A program made the position numbers and the translations under genes. Of a DNA stretch of 64,000 bases, positions 1 to 11,990 are shown piece by piece. Each line of letters begins with the position of its first letter. Positions within the stretch are counted from its first letter, which is position 1. Below the pieces are notes generated by a model. The model had not been told where the DNA came from. It searched no databases and worked only from the letters and a program-made list of their open reading frames with translations. The stretch is from Sneathiella sp. P13V-1 (GTDB taxonomy: Bacteria > Pseudomonadota > Alphaproteobacteria > Sneathiellales > Sneathiellaceae), in contig NZ_WYEU01000004.1 in the NCBI RefSeq assembly GCF_015143595.1, positions 62,001-126,000 of the forward strand, in the 5' to 3' direction.

Positions 1-1584
1 ATCGCGCATAAATACCATGCAGACGCATTTGCTGTGCTTGAAAGGATCAGGAAAGATGATCCACGTGCGGATGAGGATGGGGTCTATAGGTTGCTTCGCG
101 GGCTCGCGAATCTGGGGCTTCATCATATGGATGAAGCGCAGACTGATTTAATGCATCCTGTATTTAATGGTGTCGCCGAGGTTGCACCATGGCGCGCCAA
201 GGTCGCCGCTGAGCGCGATGATTGGAAAACTGCGCTGCGTGAGATGAAGCTGGGGCAGGAAGCACTTGGTGTCTACAATGAAGATCTCAAAAATGAGTTC
301 AACTTGATTGCTGCGGAAGCGGCCCTTGAAGATTTTGACGTGGAATCCGCGAATAAATCCTTGGAAAAAATAAGGACATCACTTGAGAAAGGAACAAATA
401 TCTCTATTGCCGCACGTCGGGAATATCTGGAAGGTTTGGGGGCGCTTAAGTCGGGTGATATCGAACGAGCGATTGGCAAATTTGATCAAGTGATAGAACT
501 TGATTACCGACCCCTCACGACCCATGCGAAATTCCGTCGTGTAAACGCGATGTTGTCTCAACAGGAAATCACACCGGACGAAGCAATTGAAGAGCTTCTG
601 GATATGTCCTATGCATGGCGCGGGGACCATCTGGAACTTGATATTCTAAAGCGTGTTGGTGATCTGCAGATTGCACAAGGTAATATTGACGAAGGGCTTA
701 AGACCTTCCGCAATATTGTCATGACATTCCCGAAAAACCCGCAAGCGCGTGATATTGCCCGTGAAATGAACGATTTGTTCAATCAGTTGTTCCTTGAAGG
801 TAAGGCAGAGGACCTGCCTCCCGTTAAGGCCTTGGCTCTCTACTACGAATATCGAGAGTTGACGCCGCTTGGTAAGCAAGGTGACAAAATGATCCGTGGT
901 CTTGCAGACCGGTTGATCAAAGTAGATTTGCTGGAACAGGCAGCACAGCTTCTGGATCACCAGATTAATTTCCGCCTGAAAGGTGATCTGAAAGCCCTGA
1001 CGGGTACTAAATTGGCAGTTGTTCATCTGTGGAACGGAAACCCTCAAGAGAGCCTGAACGTACTTTACAAAACAAGATGGAAAGCCCTTCCTGAGGAGGT
1101 GAAACGTGAGCGTTTGTTCATTCAGGCAAGAGCGCATTCAGATCTTGGGGACTATGAAGAAGCATTGGAATTGCTGATTGATGAGAAAGGCAGGCAAGCA
1201 GAAAAATTGAAAGCTGACATCTATTGGAAAGCCAAAATGTGGCCGAAAGCCATCGCGACATTGGATAAGCTGTTGCAAGATACAAATGTGAGGGCTGCTG
1301 AGAAGCTGAACCCTGAGCAAAGACAATATCTGATGCAGTTGGCGGTGGCCAGAAATCTGTCAAATGACCAATCCGGCCTTGAAGCGATGCGTCGTACCTA
1401 CCGCAAGAAATTTGTAGGCTCGCCCGATTTGGATGCCTTTGACCTGATTACCGAACAGCCAGATGGTTCCGAGATGGAGTTCCGGAAACGTGCAACTGCA
1501 ATCGCCAAGGTAAACCAGCTTGAATCTTTCATGACGGGTTACCGTGATCAGCTGGAAAATGGTGAGTTTTGGAGCACGAACTAG
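1..1584 (+). CDS. TPR-repeat protein, C-terminal part (5' end outside window)
   Basis: The reading frame is open from the first base, so the true start lies upstream; the GTG at 34 is only an internal codon. At least 527 residues are visible. The sequence is almost entirely amphipathic helical pairs of the tetratricopeptide type, for example around the segments LKSGDIERAIGKFDQVIELD and LGDYEEALELLIDEKGRQAE. No catalytic motif, signal peptide or membrane segment can be judged without the N-terminus. TPR arrays are protein-protein scaffolds, so a role in assembly or regulation is likely but the partner is unknown. The gene ends in TAG at 1582-1584, 79 bp before the aminotransferase gene. It may belong to a larger plus-strand unit to the left. 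Confidence 0.8.
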   Translation: MAHKYHADAFAVLERIRKDDPRADEDGVYRLLRGLANLGLHHMDEAQTDLMHPVFNGVAEVAPWRAKVAAERDDWKTALREMKLGQEALGVYNEDLKNEFNLIAAEAALEDFDVESANKSLEKIRTSLEKGTNISIAARREYLEGLGALKSGDIERAIGKFDQVIELDYRPLTTHAKFRRVNAMLSQQEITPDEAIEELLDMSYAWRGDHLELDILKRVGDLQIAQGNIDEGLKTFRNIVMTFPKNPQARDIAREMNDLFNQLFLEGKAEDLPPVKALALYYEYRELTPLGKQGDKMIRGLADRLIKVDLLEQAAQLLDHQINFRLKGDLKALTGTKLAVVHLWNGNPQESLNVLYKTRWKALPEEVKRERLFIQARAHSDLGDYEEALELLIDEKGRQAEKLKADIYWKAKMWPKAIATLDKLLQDTNVRAAEKLNPEQRQYLMQLAVARNLSNDQSGLEAMRRTYRKKFVGSPDLDAFDLITEQPDGSEMEFRKRATAIAKVNQLESFMTGYRDQLENGEFWSTN

Positions 1585-1663
1585 TTTTTAATTTATTCCC
1601 TTGCATCACTTGTTCAGGCTGATATGTGTTGGCCAAAGATGTTTTTTGTATAAGGAATAAGCC

Positions 1664-2791
1664 ATGGCTGGTTTGAACCAAGATGTTGATCCAGATGGAT
1701 TACTTGAGTATTCGGTTGTTTTCACAGATCGCTCTTTGAACCATATGTCGAAGTCGTTTCAAACGGTAATGAATGACATTTCAAGGCTTCTGAAATCTGT
1801 ATATAACGCCGATGCTGTGGCTATCGTTCCTGGTGGTGGAACTTACGGCATGGAAGCTGTGGCACGTCAATTTGCGACAGATAAGAGCGTTTTGGTTATT
1901 CGAAACGGCTGGTTCAGCTATCGTTGGTCCCAGATTTTCGAAGCTGGCCGTATTCCAGCAAAAGAGACTGTCCTGAAAGCCTCTCAGGTTTCAGAAGGTC
2001 ATGATGCACCTTATAGTCCTGTTTCTGCAAAACAGGCTGCAGAGGTTATTCGCACCGAAAAGCCTGCTGTTGTTTTCGCCCCTCACGTTGAAACGTCTTC
2101 CGGTATTATTTTGCCCGATGAATACCTTCAAACCATATCAGAAGCCGCTCATGAAGTGGGGGCGTTGTTCGTCCTTGATTGTATCGCCTCCGGTGCTGTT
2201 TGGGTTGATATGAAAAAGGTGGGGGTTGATGTCCTGATCAGTGCGCCACAGAAAGGGTGGAGCGCATCACCATGTGCCGCATTGGTAATGATGTCAGAGG
2301 CTGCGGAGCGGAAACTCGCCGAGACCACAAGCAGTAGTTTCGCCTGTGATCTCAAAAAATGGCGCGATATTATGAGCGCCTATGAAAATGGTGGGCATGC
2401 CTATCACGCGACGATGCCAACAGATGCGCTGGTCAATTTCCGCGACACTATGCTTGAAACTGAAAAATACGGGTTCGAAAAAGTTCGCGATGAACAATGG
2501 GCGCTTGGAAATGGTGTCAGAGACCTGATGGCGAAGCATCAGTTCCGTTCAGTGGCAGCAGAGGGCTTTGAAGCACCGGGGGTTGCTGTGTTTTACACTC
2601 AGGATGCAGATATTCAGAACGGATCCAAGTTTGCGAAAGAAGGTCTGCAAATCGCTGCTGGTGTTCCGTTGCAGTGTGATGAAGGACCCGAGTTTAAAAC
2701 GTTTAGACTGGGGTTATTCGGACTGGACAAGCTTCACAATGTGGAGCGATCAATCGAAAGTTTGGATAAAGCGCTTAAGTCCATACTTTAA
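1664..2791 (+). CDS. Class V PLP-dependent aminotransferase (alanine-glyoxylate / serine-pyruvate type)
   Basis: This is a 375-residue fold-type I PLP enzyme. The glycine-rich cofactor site is near residues 57-60 (PGGGT), an aspartate that would pair with the pyridine nitrogen sits in FVLDCIASG (D172), and the Schiff-base lysine is K197 in SAPQKGW. The family moves amino groups between alanine or serine and glyoxylate or pyruvate; the exact substrate cannot be read from sequence. The ATG follows AAGGAAT at good spacing. Length is normal for the family. It stands alone on the plus strand and converges on the DUF6065 gene, with which it shares a hairpin terminator. Confidence 0.85.
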   Translation: MAGLNQDVDPDGLLEYSVVFTDRSLNHMSKSFQTVMNDISRLLKSVYNADAVAIVPGGGTYGMEAVARQFATDKSVLVIRNGWFSYRWSQIFEAGRIPAKETVLKASQVSEGHDAPYSPVSAKQAAEVIRTEKPAVVFAPHVETSSGIILPDEYLQTISEAAHEVGALFVLDCIASGAVWVDMKKVGVDVLISAPQKGWSASPCAALVMMSEAAERKLAETTSSSFACDLKKWRDIMSAYENGGHAYHATMPTDALVNFRDTMLETEKYGFEKVRDEQWALGNGVRDLMAKHQFRSVAAEGFEAPGVAVFYTQDADIQNGSKFAKEGLQIAAGVPLQCDEGPEFKTFRLGLFGLDKLHNVERSIESLDKALKSIL

Positions 2792-2795
2792 GAAT

Positions 2796-2832
2796 GAAAG
2801 AGGCATCCCTTATGGGTGCCTCTTTCTATTTT
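2796..2832. terminator. Hairpin terminator between convergent genes
   Basis: Arms GAAAGAGGCA and TGCCTCTTTC flank a short loop, followed on the plus strand by a T-rich run (CTATTTTT). It serves the aminotransferase gene best. Because it overlaps the DUF6065 stop codon (2810-2812) it probably also limits minus-strand transcription. Confidence 0.75.
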
Positions 2833-3604
2833 TCCGGCTAGCTTTGGCATAGAGACCTCGCTCCCGTTTATGGGCGTCGCCAGGTGCAATCACTGTCTGA
2901 TGATAATTCAGCCAATCTTCATCATCAAAATTCTCAGCTCCATCAATAAATTCAAAATCTTTCAGGATTTTCTCATCATAAGTTGAACGGTGAAGTGGCT
3001 GTACTTGCATCAACGGCATCTCTCTTTTGATGGTGATCGGACTATCTGTTTTGGTGATGCGTAAGTTGGTGAAAAGGGGGCCAAACCAGTGATCTGTTTC
3101 AACAATTCCCTCATAATGTTCATAAAGCTGTGAGCCAGGTAAATTCGCTGGACGCCTGACAAGAATACTCCAATCTTTTGCTGTTTTTGCAATCAATCCG
3201 CTCCAAATTTTCAGAACACCGGGTTCCGGTGCAGAGGAGATAAAAGGAGGGGAGTAGCCTTTGATATCTTGAGGGGCGATATCATTGAAGGTTGGCGCAT
3301 AATCTGGATATTGAGAGGCCTCCAGTGGAAACCAGCTGTCCATATCCGCATATCGCCAATACATATCATTTCCATCCCAATAGACACTAAAATCCATGGG
3401 GGGGAAGATGTACCAGCCAAAGGCAGATGCCGTCGTCATGGGCTCGCAATATCGAAAGGCTCTGGTTGGAATTAATCCTCCGGCGGAGCGATCAGCCCGT
3501 TGGGGTGTCGGGGTGTCCGGGATCATACGATAAAAACGAATGATGGATGTCGGGGCAACTAAATGCCCCAACTTCTCATCTTTGGCTTTGTCAATGACAG
3601 ACAT
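2810..3604 (-). CDS. DUF6065-like protein, candidate partner or modifying enzyme of the repeat peptide
   Basis: This 264-residue soluble protein has no signal peptide or membrane helix. From memory its conserved N-terminal block (IRFYRMIPDTP at 22-32, then RADRSAGGLIPTRAFRYCEP and SAFGWYIFPPMDFS to about residue 73) is that of family DUF6065, whose function I do not know. Many aromatic residues and several histidines (H163, H172 in TDHWFG, H205, H235) could be metal or substrate ligands, but that is inference. It starts 16 nt after the stop of the repeat-peptide gene, and the GGAG in that gap gives a clear ribosome site, so the two genes are co-transcribed. The C-terminal tail is basic (KASRKNRKRHP). 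The pairing suggests that it binds or modifies the peptide; no other enzyme lies nearby. Confidence 0.6.
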   Translation of the reverse strand: MSVIDKAKDEKLGHLVAPTSIIRFYRMIPDTPTPQRADRSAGGLIPTRAFRYCEPMTTASAFGWYIFPPMDFSVYWDGNDMYWRYADMDSWFPLEASQYPDYAPTFNDIAPQDIKGYSPPFISSAPEPGVLKIWSGLIAKTAKDWSILVRRPANLPGSQLYEHYEGIVETDHWFGPLFTNLRITKTDSPITIKREMPLMQVQPLHRSTYDEKILKDFEFIDGAENFDDEDWLNYHQTVIAPGDAHKRERGLYAKASRKNRKRHP

Positions 3605-3620
3605 GCCGGTTTCTCCAGCC

Positions 3621-3923
3621 TCAAACTTTAAATGCTGGGCTCATATTGCCGAGGCGCACTGAGCCAGCGTCCTTTGATTTTTTGTCTTCAACCGCAACTT
3701 TAAAAGCAGGGCTCATGTTTCCTAGGCGAACAGTTGCTTCATCTTTTGTAGCGCTTTGTGGTTGTTCAACTGTGAAGGCAGGGCTCATATTTCCGAGACG
3801 CACTTTTGCGTCATCTTGAGTAGATGATTTTGCTTCCTCAACTTTAAATGCGGGGCTCATGTTACCGATACGCACGATGCCTTCGTCTTTTGTGGCGGCT
3901 TCTTTTTTGATCATCATAGTCAT
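3621..3923 (-). CDS. Four-unit repeat peptide, candidate multi-core RiPP precursor
   Basis: The product is 100 residues. I chose the ATG at 3923 because it has AAGGAGAG six bases upstream; a GTG at 3944 would add seven residues with no ribosome site. The protein consists of four units with a period of exactly 24 residues. Each unit ends in a 12-residue core, at 17-28, 41-52, 65-76 and 89-100: V-R-(L/I)-G-N-M-S-P-A-F-(K/T)-V. The last core ends exactly at the C-terminus. The spacers are hydrophilic and carry a weaker T-(K/Q)-D-(E/D) motif. Codons differ between units (for example AGCCCC, AGCCCT and AGCCCA for Ser-Pro), so selection acts on the peptide rather than the DNA. There is no cysteine and no signal peptide. 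It may be the precursor of several copies of one modified peptide; a repetitive binding protein is the alternative. Confidence 0.75.
   Translation of the reverse strand: MTMMIKKEAATKDEGIVRIGNMSPAFKVEEAKSSTQDDAKVRLGNMSPAFTVEQPQSATKDEATVRLGNMSPAFKVAVEDKKSKDAGSVRLGNMSPAFKV
3624..3875 (-). repeat. Four 36-bp core repeats at 72-bp period
   Basis: Core copies lie at 3840-3875, 3768-3803, 3696-3731 and 3624-3659 inside the small peptide gene. At protein level they differ only at the third position (Ile in copy 1) and the eleventh (Thr in copy 2). At DNA level they have drifted at many third positions, which argues against a very recent tandem duplication. Confidence 0.9.
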
Positions 3924-4460
3924 AATTCTCTCCTTATAAAGCACACTAAATAATAGTATAAAAATCTTTTTCGGTGTGACGGTGAAGTGATCCTAATTAA
4001 ACTATTTGATTTTTCAGTTCAGAAGGATTAGTCGGTCACTGGTGCTTGAAGAGGATGCTAAATCGCAATTATTTGCGGGTAAAGATGTGCTCAAGAAATT
4101 CAGTTTTTCTGTGAAAATCGGGTTTTATATAGATTTGTTTTCTTGGTTGTGGATTGATAAATGTTGATAAAAAACAACTAAATATAGAATATACTTAACA
4201 GGAAAAATTAAAGATAAAAAAGCAATATATAGTTGATTAGGTAGGGGAGTGGAACACTAGATGGGAAGGGTGTCATATTTATGAATTAGTAATTCACTTA
4301 ATTTAACATATTGAAATCTAATACCTTCTAGACATGTGCAGTTTTCAGTATTTAAAAGTGGGATTAATACAAAAAAATTAGTTTTCTGTTTGTTGTGCTA
4401 ACCTTGATACGATCATGTAACACAACGTGAGATGAAACAGATTGTTGGCCGTGCCATTAA
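3924..4460. other. Gene-free AT-rich upstream region of the repeat-peptide unit
   Basis: About 540 bp hold no credible coding frame and are clearly more AT-rich than the flanks. On the minus strand a TATACT at 3955-3960 would suit a -10 box giving a leader of about 25 nt, but no convincing -35 box is visible. A loose inverted repeat GTTGTG/CACAAC lies around 4390-4432. I see no tRNA, riboswitch or insertion-sequence end. Confidence 0.5.
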
Positions 4461-4495
4461 AAGGAAAAAAGCCCGCGAGATGGCCAGCAGGCTTT
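4461..4495 (-). terminator. Terminator of the HAD / hydrolase / threonine dehydratase operon
   Basis: On the minus strand a stem AAAGCCTGC / GCGGGCTTT is followed by a run of six T, about 30 bp after the dehydratase stop codon. Confidence 0.8.
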
Positions 4496-4523
4496 GAATA
4501 TCCAATTCGGGATTTTCTAGTAG

Positions 4524-5495
4524 TTATTCATTCCTGAGTATAGAAGCAAAAAGTTCAGGATCGATATTGCCGCCGGATCCAACCGCCACAGCAACTTTTC
4601 CTGAGATATCTACTTTCCCTGATAGAATGGAAGCAAGAGCAACTGCACCGCCTGGCTCAATCACTACCTTGAACAAGTTATATGCCGAATACACGGCTGA
4701 CCTTACTTCTTCTTCGCTTACGTAGATCCCTCCGGAGACATGCTTTTGCAGGATCGGGAAGGTGATCTCGCCAGGCATTGGGGTAACAATTGCATCACAG
4801 ATGCTACGGTGATCACCGCTATTTGCAACCCGTTCACCGAGTTCCAGTGATCGGGCAGTATCGTCAAAATATTCAGGTTCCGCGGAATAAATTTCGGTAT
4901 TCGGAGACCTTTGATGTAACGCAACGGAAGAGCCGGCAAGCAGCCCGCCGCCGCCGCAAGGCGTTATATAGACATCTGGTTCGAGACCCTGGTCCTGGAG
5001 TTGGTCAACGACCTCGATGCCGATCGTTCCCTGTCCTGCAATCACGGGTTCATAGTCATAGGGTTTGATCAGGGTGAGATTTTGCTCTTTTGCAATTTGA
5101 CTGCCGATTTCCTCTCTTGATTCAGTGTAGCGGTCATATGTCAAAACAGTTGCCCCGTATTTGCGGGTATTTTCCAGCTTAATGGAAGGTGTATCTTCCG
5201 GCATCAGGATCGTGGCCTTACATCCAAGCAGTTTCGCCGCATAGGCAACACCTTGCGCATGGTTACCGCTGGAATAGGCAAAGACACCAGTTTCCAGTTG
5301 CTGTCGTGACAGGCAGGATAGAGAATTGTAGGCGCCCCGGAATTTGAAAGACCCTGTTTTTTGAAGCATTTCACACTTCAAGAACAAACGCCCACCAAGT
5401 TTTTCATTGAGAAGCGGGGATTCAAGCAGAGGTGTTTTGACTGCGTGAGAGCTTATTCTCTTCGCCGCCTCAGAGATAGTATCGAAAGTTATCAT
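4524..5495 (-). CDS. Threonine/serine dehydratase-like PLP enzyme
   Basis: This 323-residue fold-type II PLP enzyme carries the cofactor lysine K51 in GSFKFRGAYN and the glycine-rich phosphate loop GGGGLLAG near residue 180. It covers the catalytic domain only, without the C-terminal ACT-like regulatory domain of biosynthetic IlvA, so it resembles catabolic threonine dehydratases and serine racemases. The expected reaction is deamination of threonine or serine to a 2-oxo acid, or racemisation. Its ATG directly follows the TAA of the upstream hydrolase gene with no gap, so translation is coupled. It is the last gene of a three-gene operon and is followed by a strong terminator. Confidence 0.85.
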   Translation of the reverse strand: MITFDTISEAAKRISSHAVKTPLLESPLLNEKLGGRLFLKCEMLQKTGSFKFRGAYNSLSCLSRQQLETGVFAYSSGNHAQGVAYAAKLLGCKATILMPEDTPSIKLENTRKYGATVLTYDRYTESREEIGSQIAKEQNLTLIKPYDYEPVIAGQGTIGIEVVDQLQDQGLEPDVYITPCGGGGLLAGSSVALHQRSPNTEIYSAEPEYFDDTARSLELGERVANSGDHRSICDAIVTPMPGEITFPILQKHVSGGIYVSEEEVRSAVYSAYNLFKVVIEPGGAVALASILSGKVDISGKVAVAVGSGGNIDPELFASILRNE

Positions 5496-6356
5496 TTATT
5501 CAGTTTCTACAAAAAATCGATTTAACAGATTAATTACTGGAGGTTCGTTGAGTTGGGGAACATGGCCTCTATTTGGGAGGCTAAGTGTGGCCATATTGGG
5601 GTGAATTTGCTGCATTTTTTTGAAAACGTCTTCGCTGAGAACGTCTGATAGCTCTCCTCGAATAGCAACTGTGGGAATATCTTTAAGGCCAGCGAAGAAA
5701 GGCCACAGATCTATTTTCTGGTCATTCGCGACTTGCTCAGCGAGAGCTTGGCCTAACCTAAGGTCGTAATTGGGTTTGAAGTTCCCCGCTTCCTGATCAT
5801 AAATGAAGCCCACTTTTGTGGTGGCGAGCCATTCTTCGTCATCAAGATCAGGGTAGGCACCTATATACTGCTCCTTCTGAGCCGCAGTTGCCTGTTCAAT
5901 TGTTTCAAACCGAACATCTTTGCCAACATAGCCTGCTATACGGCTTCCGCCTTCTTCCGCTATTTCAGGGCCAACATCATTGAGGACAGCGCCTGCAACA
6001 AAAGAAGGGGCAAGACCCGCCAGTCCCATGGTTAGTAATCCCCCCAAAGAAGTTCCGACGAAGACAGCCCTTTTGATGCCTGTATGAGACAAGAATGTCA
6101 GAATATCCTGCAGATAGATTTGCGGATTATAGTTTTTAAAATCCTCATCATAGTCGGATTTGCCGCGCCCTCTGTAATCCAGTGCGTAAAAATGCCTGTC
6201 CTTAGAGTAAGTTTCTGCAAGCTGATGGAAATCCCCTGAATTTCGGGTAAGGCCTGACAAGCAAACAACCGGTGCCTTTGTCCCTGCGCCCTGATAGTGG
6301 CGGTAGTAAAGGTTTAGACCATCATTACTTTTGTAGGTTTCTTCGGCGTAGCTCAT
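5496..6356 (-). CDS. Alpha/beta hydrolase
   Basis: This is a 286-residue cytoplasmic hydrolase. The nucleophile elbow is GTSLGG near residues 98-103, the oxyanion region lies near VVCLSGLTRNS, and the catalytic histidine is in NRGHVPQLNEP close to the C-terminus. The middle carries a helical cap. The substrate is unknown; an ester, lactone or haloalkane-derived compound is possible. The preceding gene encodes a 2-haloacid dehalogenase-like protein, 11 bp away, and the next gene starts at its stop codon, so all three are co-expressed. The operon may degrade a small organic acid or amino-acid derivative, but nothing in the sequence fixes it. Confidence 0.8.
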   Translation of the reverse strand: MSYAEETYKSNDGLNLYYRHYQGAGTKAPVVCLSGLTRNSGDFHQLAETYSKDRHFYALDYRGRGKSDYDEDFKNYNPQIYLQDILTFLSHTGIKRAVFVGTSLGGLLTMGLAGLAPSFVAGAVLNDVGPEIAEEGGSRIAGYVGKDVRFETIEQATAAQKEQYIGAYPDLDDEEWLATTKVGFIYDQEAGNFKPNYDLRLGQALAEQVANDQKIDLWPFFAGLKDIPTVAIRGELSDVLSEDVFKKMQQIHPNMATLSLPNRGHVPQLNEPPVINLLNRFFVETE

Positions 6357-6367
6357 GCGTGTCTGCT

Positions 6368-7057
6368 CTATTCTGTGCCTATGATCGGCAGCATTTCCTT
6401 CAGGTTTGAAATCTGATGGTCTGGAGGGCTTGGGATCTGTTCATCGGGTTGGCCAAACCGGTTGCACCAGATAACATTAAATCCGTAATCCTTGGCGGAA
6501 TAGGCATCCCACCCGTTGGAAGACTGGAAGGAAATAAGCGATCCCTTCACCCCTAACTTGTCTTCGGCCAATTTGTAAACAGATCCATGCGGTTTATAGA
6601 TCCGCAGATCCTCTACAGAGATGATGGCGTCCAAATAGTCACCGATACCAGCATTCTCAATCGCTGCCTCTAACATTTTCATATCGCCGTTCGAGAGAAT
6701 GGCGCATTTTTTTCCTGCCTCTTTAAGGGATTTCAGAACGGTAGGGACTTCTTCATACGCACTCAGGCGCATGTAAATATCCATAAGCCGATCTTTTAAG
6801 GGGGCATCATTTATATTCTGTGTTTGTAGTGCAAACTCCAACGCACTCTCGGTTACCTCCCAGAAAGGCCTGTAGTTTCCTTGAAGGCTGAGAAGCCACG
6901 TATATTGAAGCTGCTTGAGCCGCCATGTATCGGAAAGCGATTTCCAGTTATTACCCAGCCGTTCTTTCTCCTGGCGCGCAGCTGCGTCAACATCAAATAG
7001 GGTTCCATAGGCGTCAAAGACGCATGCTTCAGTTTTTGAGAAATCAGTTTTTGTCAT
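6368..7057 (-). CDS. HAD-family hydrolase, haloacid dehalogenase type II
   Basis: The nucleophile aspartate is in VFDAYGTLFD near residue 14. Motif II is ILSNGD, and the later SSNGWDAYSAKDYG is the segment typical of L-2-haloacid dehalogenases. The class hydrolyses 2-haloacids to 2-hydroxyacids. I use the ATG at 7057 (MTKTDFSK) rather than the TTG at 7066, giving 229 residues; the ribosome site (GGAT) is weak. It is the first gene of the operon with the alpha/beta hydrolase and the threonine dehydratase. Related HAD phosphatases cannot be fully excluded, but the SSNGWD segment supports the dehalogenase group. Confidence 0.8.
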   Translation of the reverse strand: MTKTDFSKTEACVFDAYGTLFDVDAAARQEKERLGNNWKSLSDTWRLKQLQYTWLLSLQGNYRPFWEVTESALEFALQTQNINDAPLKDRLMDIYMRLSAYEEVPTVLKSLKEAGKKCAILSNGDMKMLEAAIENAGIGDYLDAIISVEDLRIYKPHGSVYKLAEDKLGVKGSLISFQSSNGWDAYSAKDYGFNVIWCNRFGQPDEQIPSPPDHQISNLKEMLPIIGTE

Positions 7058-7149
7058 TTTATCCAACGATCTAAGAATGATCGCGCCCTTATAGGGAATA
7101 GTGGCGAAGGTGCCGCCAAATTCAACAAAAAAACTGCGTGCGGGAAGAA

Positions 7150-9372
7150 TTATTCTGTGAAATAGCCACGTTTGAGGTCATCGACGATCTGAACCACCAT
7201 AATATCATCTTGTTTGGAGAGTTGCCGGTAGATTTGCAGGTTCTCCATAACCCGCTGTACATAGTTGCGCGTTTCACTGAACGGGATCAGTTCGATCCAG
7301 TCAATCATGCTGATATCGCCCTGACGAGGATCTCCCCATTCTTCGATCCATCTGTTTGTCCTGGATCCTCCCGCATTATATGAAGCGATGGCAAGAACAT
7401 AAGATCCATTATATTTCTCGATCAGTTTGTTTAGATATGTTGATCCAAGCAAAGTGTTGTAGGAAGGATCGGTTGTTAAACGTCCTTTCGAATAAGGGAG
7501 CTTCAAACTTCTGGAGACGGATCTGGCAGTTGCCGGCATCAATTGCATGAGCCCACGCGCACCAACGCGAGAGACCGCATCCACGGCAAATGCGCTTTCC
7601 TGACGTGTGATCGCAAGAATCAAGGGTTGTTCTATACTTGGATTTGAAGGCATGAATTCGTGATCTGGCCAGTTAAACTCTGGCAATTCTGTGCCCAATT
7701 GAGACGCGCGTTTAGCCACGCGAACAGCATAGTCTGGACGCCCAATACGTGTCGCCAAATTTCCAAGATACACATATTCCTCTGGGGAAGCTGCGTCTTC
7801 CGTCATTTTTAAAAGGAACGGTAACGCTTTCTTGGCTTCACCAAATTCAGCCAAATGGCGGACAATCAATACACGCTCATCCTGCTTCAGGCGATCTGCT
7901 GTTTTTTTGGAATGGCTGACGGCCCTTGGAAGCGGAGTGAGTTTGGAATGATGAATTTCTTCCTGGGCCATCTGACCATAGAAGGTGGACGGATATTTCG
8001 CAGCTTCCTCATACCAGTAGTGGGCGGATTTGCTATCTCGCATCGCATCATGAGATCGGCCAATCCAGTAGGCCCCGCGGGCGCGACTGATAGGATAACT
8101 TACATTTTCATAAAGACGCGTGAAATGTTTTAAGGCGGCTTCACTGTCCTGAAGGAAGCGTAAAGAGATCCAGCCCGATAGCCACTCAGCAGAAGCGAAT
8201 TTTCCGCCTGCCTCTAATCCGTGTTCACTAGCAAGACGGTAGGCCTCGCTAATATGACCGAGCCTTAATAGTTTGCGCGCCTGAATTTCCCGTTCACGCC
8301 ACCAATGCTCAGGGTTTGGTAAGTCGAAATGGGAAACTTTAAGAAGAAGGTCCTGTGCGCCTTCATGATGTCCCTTCACACGGCGCCATTTGATACGATC
8401 AAAAAGAAGGCCTGGATCGTTCTGAAGCTCTTGTGGGATGCGCTTGATTGCACTGTCTACTCCAGCGGATCTGGTCATTAGACGTATTCTGGCAACAGCC
8501 AATTTCTCTGCATTGGATCCGACCCGTTTTAGCATTCGCTTGGCAGGCTCGGTATCTCGATCCCACAAAAGTCGATCAAGTCTGTCTTCATGATCTGTTT
8601 TTGTGAGGAGGGACTTATGTGCTTTGAGGATTTTCTTTTCTGTGCCGCGACTAAAGTTGCCTTGGATCCATGCCTCTTTAATCCATCGCTTACCTTTTTC
8701 TTTTTGGCCTTGTTCGATTAAGGCCTCTCCCAAGCGCAGCATCCCCATTCCTGTAAGCGGAGTACGATCAGAGAAAAAAGCCAGCGTTCTAGAGCTGGAT
8801 ATGGGATTAACTAGTGCTTCCTCTGCACGGCGATCCAGCGTGCTTCTGTAAGGCCAGTCCGGGTTGTCCACCATAAAGGTATGGATATCTTCAAAACTGG
8901 CCCCGCCTTTATATTGCCGCAACCAGCCCCATTCCAGATACTTTGCCGGAAGCCTGTATTCAGCCTTCGAAGCGACCTGAATTGCCTCTTTCCATTTTCT
9001 GCGGCCAGCAAGGTCAAACGCTTCCCGGTAAATACTCCAGTCGGCATCTGACATCAGGCCAGTGTGATGAGCACGTGGCTGTTTAGCAATTGAAGCCGGT
9101 TTAAATAAAGGAGAGGGAACAGAAGTGGCTTGCTGAACAGTTTCCTCTTCTACCGGCTTTGGATCACGAGTTGTTTTAAATGTGCGAGGGGTTGGCACCT
9201 CTCTCATTTCATTTCTTAGTTTTGGGACGATTTGCCCACCACTAGAAATCTGATCGTCATCCTGAATAGCAAATTTGGAAGCCTGAACATTGCCAGCAAA
9301 CAGCACAGCCACAGCGACAGCGCTTGCTGCCAGCAGTTTTCCTTTGGCTTTTTGTCTCGTTTCTTGGCTCAT
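7150..9372 (-). CDS. slt: Soluble lytic murein transglycosylase
   Basis: This 740-residue periplasmic enzyme has an N-terminal signal peptide (about residues 1-32, hydrophobic core LLAASAVAVAVLFAG). A long alpha-helical superhelix follows, then a C-terminal SLT/GH23 domain. The catalytic glutamate is in ITRQESAF, followed by GLMQLMPATA and IASYNAGG, the standard motifs of the fold. The family cleaves the MurNAc-GlcNAc bond of peptidoglycan and forms 1,6-anhydro ends. Length matches Slt70-type proteins. The ATG is preceded by CAGGAAACC. It lies head-to-tail behind pepN with a 44-bp gap. Confidence 0.92.
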   Translation of the reverse strand: MSQETRQKAKGKLLAASAVAVAVLFAGNVQASKFAIQDDDQISSGGQIVPKLRNEMREVPTPRTFKTTRDPKPVEEETVQQATSVPSPLFKPASIAKQPRAHHTGLMSDADWSIYREAFDLAGRRKWKEAIQVASKAEYRLPAKYLEWGWLRQYKGGASFEDIHTFMVDNPDWPYRSTLDRRAEEALVNPISSSRTLAFFSDRTPLTGMGMLRLGEALIEQGQKEKGKRWIKEAWIQGNFSRGTEKKILKAHKSLLTKTDHEDRLDRLLWDRDTEPAKRMLKRVGSNAEKLAVARIRLMTRSAGVDSAIKRIPQELQNDPGLLFDRIKWRRVKGHHEGAQDLLLKVSHFDLPNPEHWWREREIQARKLLRLGHISEAYRLASEHGLEAGGKFASAEWLSGWISLRFLQDSEAALKHFTRLYENVSYPISRARGAYWIGRSHDAMRDSKSAHYWYEEAAKYPSTFYGQMAQEEIHHSKLTPLPRAVSHSKKTADRLKQDERVLIVRHLAEFGEAKKALPFLLKMTEDAASPEEYVYLGNLATRIGRPDYAVRVAKRASQLGTELPEFNWPDHEFMPSNPSIEQPLILAITRQESAFAVDAVSRVGARGLMQLMPATARSVSRSLKLPYSKGRLTTDPSYNTLLGSTYLNKLIEKYNGSYVLAIASYNAGGSRTNRWIEEWGDPRQGDISMIDWIELIPFSETRNYVQRVMENLQIYRQLSKQDDIMVVQIVDDLKRGYFTE

Positions 9373-9416
9373 GGTTTCCTGAATAGTTTCCTATCTACCA
9401 GTCTGACAATCCAAAC

Positions 9417-11990
9417 CTAATTAGACAAACTTTTATTTGCCATTTCGTAAACATCGTTAGAAATATTTTCAGTTTCCAAAATGCGCCTCAGTTCAGCCTG
9501 CATGAGGCCCTGTCGGGTTTCATTATGCCGTCGCCATTGCCCAAGCGGGGCAACAAGTCGTGCCGCAATTTGTGGATTGGTACTATTGAGTTCGATAATT
9601 CTATCAGCAAGGAACTGGTATCCACCACCATTTTCATTGTGGAAGTGAATTGGATTGGCACCAGCAAAGGCAGCAATCAGGGAGCGCACCCTGTTTGGGT
9701 TGAGCATGGTAAAGTCCGGATGCGCAAGCAGTCCTTTCACGTCGTCCATAGTAGATGATCTGCTGGAAGTGGCTTGCAACATGAACCATTTGTCCAAAAC
9801 AAGTTGGTCTTCTTTCCAATTGTCATAGAAATTCTGCAGGGCCTCTGCGCGGTGGTCGGTTTCACTGTTGACCAGACGGGCCAGTGAGGCCATTCGATCA
9901 GTCATATTTTCTGAAGAGAAATACTGCTCTGATGCCAGTGGGAGATAGTCATCACTGGACGCCACCAAATAGCTGAGGCAGAGGTTTTTAAGTGCGCGTG
10001 CCCCCATGCTGTTATGTGATTTAAGATCCGCATAAATCGACTTCAATTGTGTTTCAAACCGCTTGCCGAGTGATTTGAGAGCCACTTTTCGAACCGTATG
10101 AATGGCATCAACATCCACAATCTTCATTTGCTGTCCGATATAGGATTCGCTTGGAAGGGTTAAGACTTCTGCTTTAAACGCAGGATCCATATTCTGATCA
10201 TCCAGAATTTCACCAAACGCTTCGGTGTAGTCATTGGAAAGTCCTGTAAGCGCTTGCCCTGACGCGTACAGTTCCACATCAGCTAACAGTCCTTGAAGGG
10301 CCAACTGTTGTCCTGCTTCCCAACGGTTAAACTCATCACTGTCATTTCTGAATAGAAGTCCCAGTTTTTCGTCAGCTGGATTTCTTGTGATCTTGATCGG
10401 TGCGGAAAACTTCCGGAATAGGGAAGGAATAGGCTTTGAGGGTATGTTCTCGAAAGTAAATGTTTGCTTCGCCTTTGTCAGGTGCAAAAGATCATCGTCC
10501 AACAGGCTGTTACCGTCTTCATCCAGCAGACCCATTGCAACTGGGATATGTAACGGATCAGCGCCTTCACCGGCTTTAACATTTTTCTGCGTGAAAGTTA
10601 GCTCGTAAGTCGAAGATGTTTCGTTATATGCGTCTTCTACAGCTATTTCCGGGGTGCCAGGTTGAATATACCAATTACGGAACTGTTTCAGATCCAGCCC
10701 GCTACCGGCTTCAATTGCTGAGACAAATTCTTCGGTAGTGACAGCCTGACCATCATGACGATCAAAGTAGATGTCCATGCCTTTTCGGAATCCTTCAGGA
10801 CCAGCAAGGGTGTGCATCATTCGGATGATCTCTGCCCCTTTTTCATAGACGGTGGCCGTGTAGAAATTATTGATCTCGACATAGCTTTGCGGCTGGATCG
10901 GATGGGCGAGGGGGCCAGCATCTTCAGGGAATTGCGCCGCGCGAAGACGTTGCACATCATCAATGCGTTTAACTGCAGCGGAGTTCATATCAGCAGAAAA
11001 CTGTTGATCCCGAAAGACGGTAAGGCCTTCTTTTAACGTCAGCTGGAACCAGTCACGGCAAGTGATGCGGTTGCCTGTCCAGTTATGAAAATATTCGTGT
11101 GCGATAACACTTTCGATCCCATCGAAGTCAGTGTCTGTTGCAGTTTGCGAAGATGCCAACACATATTTTGAGTTGAAGATGTTGAGGCCTTTATTTTCCA
11201 TTGCCCCCATGTTGAAGTCACCCACCGCGACAATCATGAAGACATCCAGATCGTATTCGCGACCATATTTCTCTTCATCCCATTTCATTGATTTTTTCAA
11301 TGAGGTCATGGCGTGATCGCATTTGTCTTCATTGCCTAGCTCAATAAAGATCTGCAAAGCAACTTTGCGCCCGCTTGCTGTGACAAATTCATCCTCAACA
11401 CAGGCAAGTTTACCCGCAACCAGTGCAAACAGATAGGCGGGTTTTGGGTGGGGATCCTCCCAGACTTTTTTAACGCGACCATCTTCGAGTTTGGTGTCGC
11501 TTACCAGGTTGCCATTAGAGAGCATGACCGGATATTCCATACCGTCCCCAATGATGGAGGTGGTAAAACGGGCCATCACATCTGGTCGATCCAGATAATA
11601 AGTAATTTTCCGGAACCCTTCAGCTTCACATTGGGTGCAGAAATTACCACTGGATTTGTAGAGGCCTTCCAAAGCCGTGTTTTCCTGTGGCTTGATCTCC
11701 GTCACAATGGTGGCCTTAAATTCATCCGAAGGAGCAATAAAGGTAAGGTCTTTGTCCGTTAGAGTGTAATTAGATTTGGAAAGCACTGCGCCATCCAGAA
11801 ATACTGATTTCAAAACCAGCGCTTCACCATTTAATCGAACCTGATCCGTTGCGTCAGTTTGTCTTTTAAAAGATAGTTCTGACGTGACAACGGTGACGTC
11901 TTCGGCCAACTCAAATGTCAGGTTGACTTCGGTGATTGTAAAAGGTGTTGGTGCGTAATCTTTAAGGTGAATTGTAGCAGGTTTTGTCAC
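9417..11990 (-). CDS. pepN: Aminopeptidase N (M1 family)
   Basis: This is an 857-residue zinc metallopeptidase. The substrate-anchoring motif is GAMENKGLN near residue 255. The zinc site is HEYFHNWTGN with the downstream glutamate in LKEGLTVFRDQ. C-terminal domains match PepN of enterobacteria in overall length (about 870 residues). The enzyme removes N-terminal residues from peptides in the cytoplasm and has no signal peptide. The start is GTG (11988-11990) with GGGG upstream. It is transcribed toward slt. Its divergent neighbour is dapA, with about 200 bp between them. Confidence 0.93.
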   Translation of the reverse strand: MTKPATIHLKDYAPTPFTITEVNLTFELAEDVTVVTSELSFKRQTDATDQVRLNGEALVLKSVFLDGAVLSKSNYTLTDKDLTFIAPSDEFKATIVTEIKPQENTALEGLYKSSGNFCTQCEAEGFRKITYYLDRPDVMARFTTSIIGDGMEYPVMLSNGNLVSDTKLEDGRVKKVWEDPHPKPAYLFALVAGKLACVEDEFVTASGRKVALQIFIELGNEDKCDHAMTSLKKSMKWDEEKYGREYDLDVFMIVAVGDFNMGAMENKGLNIFNSKYVLASSQTATDTDFDGIESVIAHEYFHNWTGNRITCRDWFQLTLKEGLTVFRDQQFSADMNSAAVKRIDDVQRLRAAQFPEDAGPLAHPIQPQSYVEINNFYTATVYEKGAEIIRMMHTLAGPEGFRKGMDIYFDRHDGQAVTTEEFVSAIEAGSGLDLKQFRNWYIQPGTPEIAVEDAYNETSSTYELTFTQKNVKAGEGADPLHIPVAMGLLDEDGNSLLDDDLLHLTKAKQTFTFENIPSKPIPSLFRKFSAPIKITRNPADEKLGLLFRNDSDEFNRWEAGQQLALQGLLADVELYASGQALTGLSNDYTEAFGEILDDQNMDPAFKAEVLTLPSESYIGQQMKIVDVDAIHTVRKVALKSLGKRFETQLKSIYADLKSHNSMGARALKNLCLSYLVASSDDYLPLASEQYFSSENMTDRMASLARLVNSETDHRAEALQNFYDNWKEDQLVLDKWFMLQATSSRSSTMDDVKGLLAHPDFTMLNPNRVRSLIAAFAGANPIHFHNENGGGYQFLADRIIELNSTNPQIAARLVAPLGQWRRHNETRQGLMQAELRRILETENISNDVYEMANKSLSN

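Follow-up and report, generated by a model that had tools for sequence, protein, structure and literature searches.

A small gene for a peptide of repeated, near-identical cores lies directly upstream of a gene for a DUF6065 (PF19541) protein in Sneathiella sp. P13V-1, and the same pairing recurs in other genera. This gene pair is probably a new RiPP-like peptide system. The partnership with the peptide is a trait of one DUF6065 clade and not of the whole Pfam family, and it was seen for most, not all, members of that clade. If the DUF6065 protein modifies the repeats, the pair would bring a new class of RiPP enzyme that has many natural substrates ready to hand and, with a minimum of two genes, could be reconstituted easily. 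Otherwise, the partnership of protein and repeat is still an unexplained one that recurs in distant bacteria and is directly testable.

The gene pair in the window

The window is the whole stretch of 64,000 nucleotides that was analysed, and the features of the pair are collected in Table 1. The first-pass annotation had described a 100-residue protein with its last core at the C-terminus. This is borne out by the translation, where four tandem 12-residue cores, VR[LI]GNMSPAF[KT]V, begin at residues 17, 41, 65 and 89 and the last ends at the stop codon. It had also described the 24-residue units as four exact copies. Their start-to-start spacing is indeed exact, at 72 nt or 24 residues, but the letters of the cores differ, with VRIGNMSPAFKV and VRLGNMSPAFTV once each and VRLGNMSPAFKV twice.

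Table 1. Features of the peptide and DUF6065 gene pair, in positions of the window
Feature	Position	Strand	Basis
Repeat (multi-core) peptide gene, 100 aa plus stop	3621..3923	-	Sequence and repeat analysis
Core 1, VRIGNMSPAFKV	3840..3875	-	Coordinates derived from translation
Core 2, VRLGNMSPAFTV	3768..3803	-	Translation
Core 3, VRLGNMSPAFKV	3696..3731	-	Translation
Core 4, VRLGNMSPAFKV, abutting the stop codon	3624..3659	-	Translation
Putative ribosome site of the peptide gene, AAGGAGAGAATT	3924..3935	-	Sequence, by eye
DUF6065 (PF19541) protein, 264 aa, repeat-linked clade	2810..3604	-	Pfam match, tree
Putative ribosome site of the DUF6065 gene, AGGCTGGAGAAACCGGC	3605..3621	-	Sequence, by eye
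Inverted repeat, 13-nt arms, 92%, at the 3' end of the DUF6065 gene	2796..2826	.	Repeat search

Over the six pairwise comparisons of the four units, the cores have a pS of 0.63 and a pN of 0.04, against 0.68 and 0.48 in the spacers. The residues of the core are kept and the codons vary, which confirms the selection on the core peptide that had been proposed from the diverged codons. The repeat is unlikely to be a product of chance, given its exact period, the contrast in pN and pS, and its recurrence upstream of DUF6065 genes within the genus and in other genera.

The DUF6065 gene had been placed 16 nt downstream, and this is the distance from the stop codon of the peptide gene to its ATG. A purine-rich stretch stands ahead of both ATGs, as judged by eye. 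The product of the DUF6065 gene is a divergent member of PF19541 (E 2.3e-13), with 50.7 bits, above the Pfam curated cut-off of 26.6. The next same-strand gene upstream encodes a PLP-dependent enzyme (4524-5495) and is about 600 nt from the peptide gene. Given this distance and the inverted repeat, the transcription unit would most simply contain the peptide and DUF6065 genes only. The inverted repeat may serve as a terminator for this unit and also for the class V aminotransferase gene that converges on it.

Seven neighbouring genes, at 34-11990, were assigned by Pfam to a TPR protein, a class V aminotransferase, the PLP-dependent enzyme, an alpha/beta hydrolase, a HAD hydrolase, a lytic transglycosylase and an M1 peptidase. 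None of the seven is a known RiPP maturase, so the earlier remark on the lack of a known modifying enzyme nearby is correct for them. The Sneathiella pair also has no recognisable leader, no protease and no exporter.

The peptide of the window and nine other precursors have no credible match to a known precursor family in Pfam or NCBIfam. PF10313 for the precursor of locus L068 (21.4, cut-off 20.5) and PF11736 for that of L065 (25.4, cut-off 22) were rejected as repeat artefacts, as no single stretch passes alone.

Recurrence in Sneathiella and beyond

A search of 60 genomes, our own included, found PF19541 in 13, and nine of these are among the 24 genomes of the same genus. The core was searched for at the DNA level as G-N-M-x-P-x-F, where the first x could be only S, T, R, C or W. 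It has 35 sites in 10 of the 60 genomes, 33 of them just upstream of the DUF6065 gene in nine Sneathiella carriers, with one stray site in G012 and one in G039. Peptide and DUF6065 gene are thus carried by 9 of the 24 Sneathiella genomes and always together (9/9 carriers), with two to seven copies of the core.

The gene for the PLP-dependent enzyme was located in 21 of the 24 genomes, and the other three are 56-70% complete. It adjoins the pair in all nine carriers, and the neighbour on the far side varies between them. In all 12 readable non-carriers the homologue of the TPR gene (window 34-1584) directly follows the PLP-enzyme gene, and the site is therefore empty. Peptide and DUF6065 gene form a discrete cassette, whose site is occupied or empty in Sneathiella.

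For other genera we scanned two collections with a DUF6065 alignment, A2. The genome_contigs collection had 349 pattern stretches, 164 of them relatives, and the best 80 of these 164 were kept; viral_contigs gave 17 from 42 stretches. With a pair on a Rhizobium plasmid (L018) the set has 98 loci, 84 of them with at least 300 nt upstream. Their taxonomy is unsure, because many are MAG contigs and 17 come from viral_contigs.

Core models built on one half of the loci were tested on the remaining half. A pass means a core of at least 8 bits in a same-strand ORF that ends at most 260 nt upstream of the DUF6065 match or at most 20 nt inside it. A core-bearing ORF was found just upstream in 66 of the 84 loci, 55 with two or more cores, by models whose seed cores were chosen by regular expression from the same upstream regions and whose cross-validation halves contain related loci. 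Each locus was scored by the best of several upstream ORFs, and ORFs outside the upstream region served as control; the score was reached by 4 of 17,708 such ORFs. The passes comprise 60 of 74 loci from genome_contigs plus the Rhizobium pair, and 6 of 10 from viral_contigs. Without the five Sneathiella loci (L050-L054), which appear to be genomes already in the genus search, 61 of 79 pass; the peptides of L050, L052 and L054 are identical to those of same-genus genomes. Among the loci with less than 300 nt upstream, 7 of 14 pass.

Failures number 18 of the 84. Seven of them (L059, L063, L078, L080, L144, L145 and L146) have divergent repeats by eye, two (L073 and L093) have one doubtful copy each, and L134 shows two partial units, which lie about 570 nt upstream. 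For the other eight no repeat is evident upstream by eye. The units of L144, L145 and L146, all from viral_contigs, are very short (VGGGFRLGGLFRLGG; VKLGASCRTPA) and among the most divergent of the clade.

A second sample was taken with a further profile, A3 (E up to 1e-20). Members are present in 4 of 385 genomes of the class; in the family of genome G208, 9 of 75 genomes have them, with 10 genes. A multi-copy repeat peptide lies upstream of 10/10 of these genes by self-similarity, against 6/10 by the core model, which therefore misses divergent core types. Four loci of this family (L278, L279, L281 and L282) have the same peptide as loci of the scanned collections; those of the other six were not recognised there. 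One genome, G473, has two different pairs (L286 and L280), one of them with at least eight copies of a 29-residue unit with the core VKVGGMQPTF.

Core letters vary between loci. VHIANKSPAF is found in roseobacters, with 11 copies in Pseudaestuariivita rosea, and also in the Rhizobium plasmid pair. VRLGGFAPTL, VRLGGMSPSL and VRLGAVAPSL come from loci mostly labelled Acetobacteraceae, Rhodospirillales or Proteobacteria, VEMGGLSPLF and VEVGNGAIAPKV from MAGs labelled Betaproteobacteria, and VSTGGLQRAI from Roseomonas. IRLGSVFRLP and further variants are also found upstream of DUF6065 relatives.

The DUF6065 clade and its relatives

The A3 members were picked by similarity to the DUF6065 protein of the window, whether or not a peptide accompanied them. 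In a tree of 109 proteins, from which the Rhizobium protein is absent, the 65 A3 proteins make up one side of a branch with support 100/99. Thirty canonical DUF6065 proteins are separate (86/68), and so are the phage and related proteins. All 65 A3 members match PF19541 at E up to 10, with 2.4e-19 as the best value. The core model is passed by 49 of 64 A3 loci, and part of the remainder fail because too little DNA lies upstream.

Strong canonical matches (E below 1e-50) occur in 36 of 385 class genomes. By this core model, 0 of the 30 best-scoring canonical loci have a core upstream, and the idea that DUF6065 genes in general go with repeat peptides is therefore rejected. The co-occurrence that the first-pass annotation had put forward for checking consequently stands for the repeat-linked clade (66/84 scanned loci, 10/10 genes in the second family and 9/9 Sneathiella carriers) and falls for the 30 canonical loci. 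Loci L211 and L002 have high upstream self-similarity scores without the V-x-phi-G motif. Since canonical genes occur without the repeat peptide, the basic activity of the family need not be peptide modification.

One Cys, Cys53, is invariant across 33 diverse DUF6065 relatives, the canonical branch included, and an E-T-D segment is at least 90% conserved in A3. Both features fit an enzyme. No similarity of DUF6065 to a RiPP maturase or a solved structure was detectable in Pfam and PDB profile searches.

Relatives are also found in viruses. The DUF6065 protein of the window matches phrog_7084 (E 8.9e-9), and the bacterial members of this group are related to proteins of haloarchaeal tailed viruses and cyanophages. 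In HSTV-2 the homologue comes after a thymidylate synthetase gene. In the cyanophage S-CREM1 it is annotated "triphosphate nucleotidohydrolase" and has a tryptophan halogenase on one side and, on the other, past a single small gene, several consecutive 2OG-Fe(II) oxygenases. Tables of distant homologues from HHpred and Phyre2 are mentioned in the paper on S-CREM1 (PMC9964418). The broader S-CREM1 region (L243, 863-8537) also has genes for a collagen-like protein and a JmjC protein, so that the DUF6065-like gene stands as if in a tailoring gene set. This company of halogenase and oxygenase genes is a hint of an older role in the tailoring of peptides or proteins. The DUF6065-like gene of Syn10 (L244) has a halogenase two genes upstream, and the other genes there encode hypothetical proteins.

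A third bacterial DUF6065 group (L235, L237, L238 and L239) is near the haloarchaeal virus proteins in the tree, and no adjacent repeat peptide was seen there. Whether the repeat-linked clade came from phages was probed by tblastn of the DUF6065 protein of the roseobacter locus L068 against the phages collection, which gave no match.

A different function would follow if DUF6065 were a beta-clip protein of the dUTPase or dCTP deaminase (DCD) kind that acts on nucleotides, with the peptide as a regulator or arm-like ligand. The idea of such a fold, and the register expected in hhalign, came from what we take to be the dUTPase motif. The profile alignments are in this register, and none of 100 column shuffles attains the score that the widest profile has against dCTP deaminase; the thymidylate synthetase beside the HSTV-2 homologue and the annotation in S-CREM1 point the same way. 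However, all hhalign probabilities are below 3%, and the reversed template outscores the real one in 4 of 8 profile pairs. Shuffles that equal or exceed the real score number 0, 2, 15 and 43 of 100 for DCD and 10, 11, 49 and 66 of 100 for dUTPase, depending on the query profile, so that the low counts are limited to two wider-profile DCD pairs. PDB profile searches found no dUTPase. A dUTPase-like fold is thus unproven, and we regard a nucleotide-acting DUF6065 as very unlikely.

Repeat units, neighbouring genes and a possible role

The anatomy of the unit was computed over 73 loci that pass the core model. Conserved positions are D (92%), G (71%), [VI] (98%), R (82%) and [GA] (100%), and four positions past [GA] there is P (64%) or R (32%). 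By the core model a peptide has 1 to 19 copies. The modal period is 17 residues in 21 loci, with other values from 9 to 46. After the Gly of the last core, 6-13 residues remain to the C-terminus in 68 of 73 loci. By the model a single core is present in 11 of 66 loci; in L085 and L087, which are among these, more units are visible by eye. Because D-x-G-[KR]-V-R-L-G recurs in every unit and little sequence stands ahead of the first, we infer that the recognition element lies within each unit.

Neighbouring genes differ between core types. In 5/5 loci with the IANKSP core (L018, L058, L061, L064 and L068) an MFS frame overlaps the end of the DUF6065 gene; the start codons of the MFS genes are not certain in the four roseobacter loci. 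Identity is 41-62% among the four roseobacter MFS proteins and 26-29% between these and the one from Rhizobium.

Of 97 loci searched, 11 have a TldD gene close to the peptide gene (L056, L057, L065, L083, L084, where it is partial, L090, L097, L101, L117, L122 and L127), and many of the 97 are too short for one to be visible. Identity to three queries is 77-91%, and all four of the proteins tested are above the NCBIfam TldD cut-off. A review describes TldD/E as removing leaders from several RiPPs, as frequently encoded away from the cluster and as having additional roles (PMC10885120), and for these reasons its adjacency is only a hint. It could also reflect synteny with a housekeeping tldD.

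Neighbouring proteins were predicted with a crude ORF caller. For the repeat type, 80 of 124 listed proteins were scanned; the 44 left out were frames resembling the precursor or antisense to it, plus some others. Among the matches listed, which cover 25 of 67 families, the most common family is a BTAD regulator, in 7 of 80 proteins. Around canonical DUF6065 genes, where 25 of 80 families are listed, none of these is matched by more than 2 of 80 proteins. No larger conserved cluster of genes was accordingly found among these matches. The genes convergent with DUF6065 in L057, L060, L070, L084, L118, L123 and L128 have a similar start sequence, and that of L057 has a weak match to an AfsR-like model.

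On a plasmid of Sinorhizobium medicae (L019, 808-8778), genes for a methyltransferase, a Frankia_peptide-like ORF, an amidohydrolase, a distant DUF6065 protein and an S8 peptidase lie within 8 kb. This gene set looks like an unstudied RiPP-type cluster. The ORF matches PF14407 (Frankia_peptide) weakly, with E 3.4e-6 and 27.7 bits for a cut-off of 48, and is about 3 kb from the DUF6065 gene. This match, the MFS overlap and the nearby TldD offer circumstantial support for a RiPP reading.

The regular units could also belong to a multivalent scaffold, where each unit is a linear binding motif that docks one DUF6065 protein or another partner, and the copy number sets the valency with no modification or cleavage. 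A motif in every unit, periods that are regular and most often 17, arrays of up to 19 copies and the lack of a leader are all expected of a scaffold, and no protease or transporter family occurs in more than 4 of the 80 scanned neighbours among the matches listed. We consider it unlikely, as single-core forms give no valency, the last core is held near the C-terminus in most loci, and the MFS frame overlaps the DUF6065 gene in every IANKSP locus.

The near-identical cores with variable spacers would also suit an unmodified signal or bacteriocin-like peptide, cut from the array in many identical copies, and the MFS frame of the roseobacter and Rhizobium type could export it; DUF6065 would then be a chaperone, an immunity protein or a processing factor. 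No signal peptide was noticed by eye, a protease is near few loci only among the matches listed, with TldD near the 11 loci above, and the invariant Cys looks enzymatic. These points make an unmodified product a rather poor prospect.

Our preferred reading, for which we see about an even chance, is that DUF6065 acts on each unit of the array, in a RiPP-like maturation by an undescribed enzyme family encoded in a two-gene peptide cassette. The small gene would encode a precursor of one to about 20 near-identical units, each made of a conserved stretch, D-x-G-[KR]-[VI]-R-[LIVM]-[GA], plus a short tail of the core such as NMSPAF, GFAPTL or SVFRLP. The DUF6065 protein of the repeat clade would be its dedicated partner, one that recognises every unit and most probably modifies it. 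The modified peptide would later be trimmed and released. Export could run through the MFS protein in the IANKSP type and trimming through a TldD-like protein at the tldD loci, and in Sneathiella unlinked functions would serve. A wider claim, that the repeat-linked DUF6065 proteins are a new class of peptide-modifying enzymes and, with their leaderless self-repeating precursors, a new RiPP class across Alphaproteobacteria and bacteria labelled Betaproteobacteria, we hold to be possible, if somewhat short of probable.

In the open-licence PMC literature, with subscription papers and preprints outside this scope, no paper found names DUF6065, and for the core strings, PF19541 or the phrog name no paper looked related by its title. 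Among the titles listed for wider subjects, none dealt with such a pair.

Among known systems, canonical DUF6065 proteins belong to the same Pfam family and have the invariant Cys in common, but they sit on a separate branch of the tree and have no peptide at their loci. The phrog_7084 proteins are matched by the DUF6065 protein of the window, but they form a distant group of the tree with other neighbours, thymidylate synthetase in HSTV-2 and the halogenase and oxygenases in S-CREM1, and the small adjacent viral genes inspected are not repeat peptides. Frankia_peptide appears near one distant DUF6065 gene, and no sequence relation to the repeat peptides was seen. For the dUTPase and dCTP deaminase (beta-clip) proteins, the likeness consists of weak in-register profile matches that are not significant overall.

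Multi-core RiPP clusters, as a kind, are also among the closest systems. They differ from the present pair, which has no leader and a recognition-like motif in every unit. No known maturase is found among the seven window neighbours or, among the matches listed, in the neighbour families of other loci; Pfam gives only DUF6065 for the partner, and PDB searches give no credible relative of solved structure. In common with such clusters, a small gene encodes a precursor with repeated conserved cores and is followed by one conserved uncharacterised protein, with an MFS frame or TldD nearby in some loci. The pair would thus appear to work like a multi-core RiPP cluster, and is a candidate member of the RiPPs.
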